A stretch of DNA of 32,542 nucleotides from positions 1-32,542 of the forward strand of contig CAJOGQ010000055.1 of assembly GCA_905234125.1 (NCBI GenBank), written 5' to 3'. Shown one piece after another: positions 676 to 1,033 of the stretch; positions within the stretch are counted from its first letter, which is position 1, and each line of letters starts with the position of its first letter. The stretch is from an uncultured Bacteroidaceae bacterium. GTDB taxonomy: Bacteria > Bacteroidota > Bacteroidia > Bacteroidales > Bacteroidaceae. Made by a program: the position numbers and the translations under genes. The notes below the pieces were generated by a model. The model saw only the letters and a program-made list of their open reading frames with translations, was not told the origin of the DNA and did no database searches.

Positions 676-1033
676 ATGACAGATGACAGATGACAGTTTT
701 CTCATGAGCATGATAATACAAACCATTCAACTTTTTTCAGGGAAGTACACAGTAAAGTGCCATTGTGCCATAGTGCCGTTTGGTAAATTCTTGTGCGCAC
801 AGAGCACAGAGCACAGTTTTATTAGGGATGGTATTGCAGAGCGAAAATAAGAGACTAAAATTTTTATTATATATAAAATATATATAATAAAGTTTTTTAC
901 CCTACTTTTTTACAGCTCCTCAGAAAACTGTGCTCTGTGCGCACTTGGACAATTTTCTGATTGTGTTGACAATGTTTGCTCCCTACAAAACTGTCATCTG
1001 TCATCTGTCATACACCAAACGGCACTATGGCAC
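676..1033. repeat. Composite inverted-repeat element with heptanucleotide-repeat arms
   Basis: 676-700 is the exact reverse complement of 987-1011 (25 bp); 765-784 of 1014-1033 (20 bp); 793-820 matches 924-944 apart from one extra heptad; central AT stem 863-874/880-891. Confidence 0.85.

Follow-up and report, generated by a model that had tools for sequence, protein, structure and literature searches.

Crossed inverted repeats in a rumen Bacteroidaceae genome look like a patchwork of dispersed hairpins with matched arms

The stretch of DNA analysed here, called the window throughout, is 32,542 nucleotides long and is contig C55 of a rumen Bacteroidaceae MAG, a draft of 2.7 Mb that is 84% complete. 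A block of inverted repeats at 676-1033 lies on the 5' side of a gene (1342-2829) for a DUF4301 protein, the nearest relatives of which are found in rumen Bacteroidaceae MAGs, with up to 96% identity, and in Candidatus Minthosoma, with 86-88%. In the related MAGs the start of the DUF4301 gene is kept, the upstream genes are other ones, the repeat block is absent and nothing upstream can be aligned. The window begins at a contig end, and the DUF4301 gene led to no orthologous empty site for it.

The block is part of a composite repeat at about 514-1217 that consists of a leader, hairpins, a 22-nt array and a tail; the ends 514 and 1217 were set by eye from the content that the copies on contigs C5 and C23 have in common. 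The AT hairpin, the tail and the composite as a whole are given without strand and all its other parts on the forward strand. The leader carries three 21-nt repeats like AATGGTGGGTTATTTCCAAAT (597-659), common to the copies on C5, C23 and C51. Arm A (676-700), which reads (ATGACAG)3TTTT and continues as TTTTCTCATGAGCA, is the left end of a reverse-orientation element of the hairpin family and stands solo on C5. It is followed by a module AACCATTCAACTTTTTTCAGGGAAGTAC (721-748), found ahead of GTGCCAT-armed hairpins both here and on C69 and ahead of a GTGACAA-armed hairpin in genome G009, and then by arm B (754-784, perfect part 765-784), built of period-8 GTGCCAT units. Arm C (793-820), reading (GCACAGA)2GCACAG TTTT, opens element C, which is complete and in forward orientation; it holds a central AT hairpin D/D' (857-897) and closes with arm C' (924-944), with the conserved inner motif GCTCCTCAGAAAACTG ahead at 915-930. 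Arm A' (987-1011) lies directly inside arm B' (1014-1041, perfect part 1014-1033). Beyond these stand an array of 22-nt GTTGAGCCGGTAGCTCAAAGGC units (1051-1133), which is an independent dispersed repeat, and the tail (1157-1217), in which the perfect palindrome AAACAACGGCGTTGTTT stands twice in identical form, at 1157-1173 and, after a gap of 27 nt, at 1201-1217. The tail is present in the C23 copy, and its palindromes recur there and in other composites.

Both the array and the leader repeats are also found apart from the composite. Arrays like that of the window, with 3-4 units, typically start with GAGCCGGTACCCCC and often end with GAGGCGGTGGCTC. They recur at no fewer than a dozen scattered intergenic sites (among them L026, L027, L031, L032, L034, L035, L039 and L040), in many cases right behind the end of a gene, and their units make small stems, TTGAGC/GCTCAA and TTGAGGC/GCCTCAA, that apparently co-vary. 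In genome G009 the hairpin arms (L087-L089) are accompanied by another 22-nt array, GGTCGGAGCGGGAGGCTTTCCC, and other tail palindromes, GATACGCCGTTTCG, alike in plan to those of the window and different in sequence.

The crossed geometry is real. The original prediction had given the order A B C D D' C' A' B', and an inverted-repeat search bears this out: A/A' crosses B/B', with perfect pairing over 25 bp between 676-700 and 987-1011 for the former and over 20 bp between 765-784 and 1014-1033 for the latter, both as predicted, and B/B' can be extended to 762-784/1014-1036 with 22 of 23 positions paired. The arms are also tandem repeats themselves as had been described, with (TGACAGA)2TGACAGT at 677-697, (GCACAGA)2GCACAGT at 797-817 and the period-8 GTGCCAT units in B. 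The C arms hold a perfect inverted repeat of 17 bp (804-820/924-940); the left C arm is one 7-nt unit longer than C', and an alternative register (793-809/928-944) pairs at 17 of 17 positions too. The AT hairpin (857-875/879-897) has arms of 19 nt with 89% complementarity. In 500 dinucleotide shuffles the longest perfect inverted repeat averaged 8.1 bp and never went beyond 13, against the 25 bp observed, and the region 660-1050 folds with a z of -7.4. The cross-complementary pairs between A and C show them to be one element family in opposite orientations and thus not independent designs: A runs on into its flank and TGCTCCCTACAAAA precedes A', which makes these the two ends of a reversed C-type element.

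A BLASTN check for further copies, proposed with the original prediction, returned one more crossed copy, on C23, together with a related one on C5 and dozens of single-part copies. The C23 paralog has the order A B A' B', with B/B' perfect over 30 bp. In place of C it has one arm, TTTTTGTGCTCTGTGCGCATTTGG, and the scar TTGTGC|TCTGTGCGCA corresponds to the window with one of its two TGTGC copies (792-796 and 928-932) and all the sequence between them removed, which matches what slippage across a hairpin would leave. The C5 copy has the leader and a solo A arm followed by a hairpin of GTGACAA units, and A' is absent; the spacer GACAAAATAAAC between its A arm and the next hairpin is present on C23 too. 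The B-type hairpin on C69 stands alone. In other copies the junctions are kept and the arm units differ, being ATTACAG on C71 and AATTCAG on C2, C3, C4, C28 and C35. The modular assembly suggested at the outset is thus supported, since the C23 and C5 paralogs share some modules and swap others, and single modules stand alone elsewhere. An empty site for the C28 hairpin was not found, its flanking genes standing apart in relatives, and the crude and noisy ORF call gave no clear rule for gene orientation around the hairpins.

A probable loss of a hairpin core is seen in related genomes as well. The site at 5000-6000 of contig C52 in genome G017 and its counterpart on contig C38 of the sister genome G055 have flanks that are 98% identical, and the full hairpin is present only in G017; G055 carries just one arm, which meets the right flank at CGCAC. 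That arm and the leader end match contig C36 of G017 at 52 of 52 bases, so that copies exchange sequence too. Solo arms are common elsewhere (L088, L089, L091, L102, L104 and L106). Such arms would be left if the hairpin were bridged by slippage from one short direct repeat to the other and its core thereby lost. We infer that the C23 and G055 cases are probably both losses rather than pre-insertion states.

The hairpins form a class with a common plan, in which arms of 2-4 tandem units of 7-9 nt usually enclose an AT-rich hairpin in the loop, with a conserved junction of CAG-TTTTATAGGGA on one side and GCTCATGAGAAAA-CTG on the other. Element C is complete and stand-alone in G009, with arms of 29 bp, and a 24-bp version is found in another genus; the arms in relatives are made of GCACAGA, ATATCAG, TTGACAG, TATACAG or TACTCAG with similar junctions. 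A covariance model built on ten elements was used for the class searches. It gave 23 matches in the own genome, counting both strands. Matches were found in at least 28 of 45 genomes of the genus, in at least 18 of 101 genomes and 7 of 30 genera of the family (a sample that includes the own genome) and, of 198 genomes sampled from the order, in at least one that lies outside the family; in these wide searches few candidates were scored per genome, and the lower counts are lower bounds. Some element ends are missing because draft MAGs break at repeats. Lower-scoring subfamilies, with units such as GTTGCAGT, GTTACAGT, ACGCACC and GTACCAGC, keep the tandem-unit arms around some 85-160 nt with an AT hairpin, the junction motif not always being kept, and are treated as grouped with the class by architecture alone and not by common descent. 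A literature search of partial coverage found no paper describing these hairpins, and any novelty is relative to that search.

The family is one of dispersed hairpins whose arms differ between copies and yet almost always match each other. In the alignment of ten elements 12 of 26 outer-stem pairs are changed on both sides and none on one side only, and none of 500 shuffles reached covariation as high. Among the 1332 aligned arm positions of 55 hairpins, 1308 are complementary, though the unit sequence varies widely; the covariance model used to gather these hairpins favours paired arms, which biases the figure upwards. The ACGCACC subfamily of G017 and G055 gives a closer view. In a comparison of five intact copies, which leaves out G017 C67, three have private variants in both arms (AGCGCACC on G017 C7, AACGCACC on G017 C36 and CGTGCGCAC at the tip on G017 C52), and the outer arms are unlike in the other two (G055 C37 and C57). 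Likewise, the AGTGCCAAT unit is in both B and B' on C23 and in neither in the window. Template switching between hairpin arms is known to homogenise the arms of inverted repeats and to yield multi-base compensatory changes (PMC8604942, PMC8794818). We infer that the arms here are kept matched by homogenisation of this kind at the DNA level, together with slippage. One arm would template the other in replication by template switching within the hairpin, slippage would add or remove tandem units, and the two combined would keep the arms of each hairpin matched while one copy comes to differ from another. The few mismatches could also come from the recent spread of elements that were already symmetric.

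We put the probability at about 0.6 that dispersed non-coding hairpins, with arms matched by template switching, make up the block as a mosaic within a larger intergenic composite. The crossing then seems to follow from the patchwork and not from the design of a knot. C5 keeps the leader and the solo A arm with a different hairpin next to them, so that A and A' are most likely parts of different modules. In both the window and C23, A' is immediately inside B', within the loop of the B hairpin, and the module AACCATTCAACTTTTT...GAAGTAC, which adjoins B-type arms on C69, stands ahead of B in the window. The elements would spread between intergenic sites, presumably moved by an enzyme, and enter or abut one another; the solo A arm of the leader module would thereby have come to lie left of a B hairpin whose loop carries an ATGACAG-subfamily fragment beside B', and A and A' would pair because both are of the (ATGACAG) subfamily. 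A B hairpin with an ATGACAG fragment in its loop, next to a solo ATGACAG arm, is the simplest account of the crossing. A single inversion between the A/A', B/B' or A/C' arms was also worked through on paper, and none restores a nested order. A further, independent crossed locus (L248 in genome G023) likewise has an intact hairpin with an extra arm of its own unit nearby.

Other readings of the block have to be weighed against this mosaic. The elements could be MITE-like non-autonomous transposons moved in trans, with the units as ordinary TIRs and their diversity as a sign of many families. They are multi-copy, short, non-coding, intergenic and bounded by inverted repeats, five near-identical AATTCAG copies are present in the genome, and in G017 and G055 the similarity between copies stops at about the outer end of the hairpin arm. 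However, conservation is found in the internal motif and variation in the outermost arm sequence, which is the reverse of normal TIRs, and the composite unit includes the leader and has no bounding inverted repeats of at least 12 nt. The original prediction had held that this is not a simple MITE, and that part stands as far as the varying outer arms and the conserved inner junction go; as to target-site duplications, none were seen by eye in the flanks of the copies, and no clean single-event empty site was found. A conventional MITE recurring elsewhere had been named as the finding that would speak against the crossed reading. The block does recur, but with varying outer arms and without one conserved terminal sequence, and we consider a MITE somewhat unlikely. 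A RAYT/Y1 transposase was considered as the mobiliser and is absent from the own genome: Y1_Tnp (PF01797), the sole transposase family searched, has 0 matches in this 84% complete assembly. It is doubtful, though conceivable, that the hairpins are a distinct mobile class of the Bacteroidaceae, in which the machinery that moves or excises them reads the internal junction, while the heptad arms outside it keep being replaced in matching pairs, for example by copying of the other arm or of tandem arrays at the target. An invertible switch, whose arms would be recombinase sites flipping the loop as in the phase-variable promoters of Bacteroidales, is highly improbable. The hairpins, with arms of 17-35 bp around about 100 bp, fall within the range of such switches, and A and C do lie in opposite orientations. 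Against this, the loop faces the same way with respect to the leader in all 6 intact copies of one G017/G055 subfamily, and the arms differ between loci, which would leave one recombinase without a fixed site.

On the reading as a functional RNA, the region would be transcribed and selection on the RNA fold would maintain its stems, perhaps as a pseudoknot or as a switch from A/A' to B/B' and back. The strong fold and the double-sided changes in the outer stem speak for this, and B and B' change together between the two crossed copies, so that the pairing of each arm set is maintained. RNA selection is, however, expected to leave an excess of G-U pairs. The outer stem has no one-sided (G-U) changes, and the mismatches in the 55 hairpins are 10 G-U, 7 A-C and 7 other; with numbers this small, from a set biased towards paired arms, the lack of a clear G-U excess is a pointer rather than a proof against RNA selection. 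There is also no credible Rfam match (two sub-threshold matches to eukaryotic miRNAs, both to the C hairpin, were judged to be chance), the A arm is unpaired in the C5 paralog and the unit counts differ between the two arms. The pseudoknot that the original prediction had offered gains no specific support. The pseudoknot-free fold with A/A' and C/C' has -127.1 kcal/mol against -114.2 kcal/mol when B/B' and C/C' are forced, and on C5 the A arm has no partner. With only two crossed paralogs to compare, B/B' co-vary and A/A' has one G-U-type mismatch in C23. A pseudoknot is geometrically possible and nothing found requires one, and we regard selection for an RNA structure as improbable. The hairpin may be without function for the cell.

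Several known systems resemble parts of the mosaic. BrickBuilt of Porphyromonas gingivalis is, in the part of its description used here, a Bacteroidales intergenic composite of about 20 copies, with tandem 22-23 nt repeats flanked by a leader and a tail and with modules that may be missing, as in the composite of the window (PMC4596501). The tandem 22-nt array with leader and tail is analogous to it in architecture. BrickBuilt is described with small inverted-repeat ends, whereas none were found at the ends of the window composite, where no inverted-repeat pairs of at least 10 nt join 500-600 to 1140-1300; the 22-nt array here also stands alone at many loci, and heptad-armed hairpins do not appear in that part of the BrickBuilt description (PMC4596501). 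Bacterial MITEs are likewise short, non-coding, dispersed and bounded by inverted repeats, but the hairpins here have variable, internally tandem arms and a conserved motif inside them. REP/REPIN elements, with their RAYT (IS200-like) transposases, are also hairpin-forming intergenic repeats, often in mosaics; here, in contrast, the arms are tandem heptads and not a fixed palindrome, and no Y1 domain was detected in the 84% complete draft genome. The TAACTGA heptamer repeats of Beggiatoaceae, Cyanobacteria and some Bacteroidetes are tandem 7-nt intergenic units as well, but have one fixed unit in direct orientation, with one inverted case reported (PMC4679880), whereas the hairpins have a variable unit that both arms carry in mirrored form. 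In template-switch (quasipalindrome) inverted repeats the mechanism renders the arms identical and yields two-sided changes, as we propose here; those cases are single short repeats or RNA genes, and here the process would act on a dispersed family (PMC8604942, PMC8794818).

The value of this family is that it supplies natural hairpins by the dozen, whose arms vary and whose junctions are largely conserved, and that the joint change of both arms can be traced in them between close species. Two-sided compensatory change is normally taken as proof of a functional RNA stem, and these hairpins allow template switching at the DNA level to be weighed against RNA selection. They are also a warning that crossed inverted repeats in intergenic DNA can come from mosaic repeats and need not imply a pseudoknot.

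Hairpins of the family are found in other arrangements as well. At L219:300-677 three of them, with GATGGCAG, CTTACAG and ATACAG arms, form a properly nested counterpart of the window. Three mutually complementary arms in the order arm, arm', arm, which allow two alternative hairpins, stand at L239:421-733 and L253:216-554, two loci of different genomes with flanking sequence in common. Two left arms with differing units lie in series at contig ends in genome G005 (L098:510-578 and L099:490-638), and probably come from additional nested or crossed hairpins that the assembly has truncated. In G017 and G055 a different leader of tandem repeats of about 23-24 nt, GGGGAACACTTGCATGCGCTTGT, stands ahead of each ACGCACC hairpin (L227, L331-L336), and this leader is itself found at dozens of sites.
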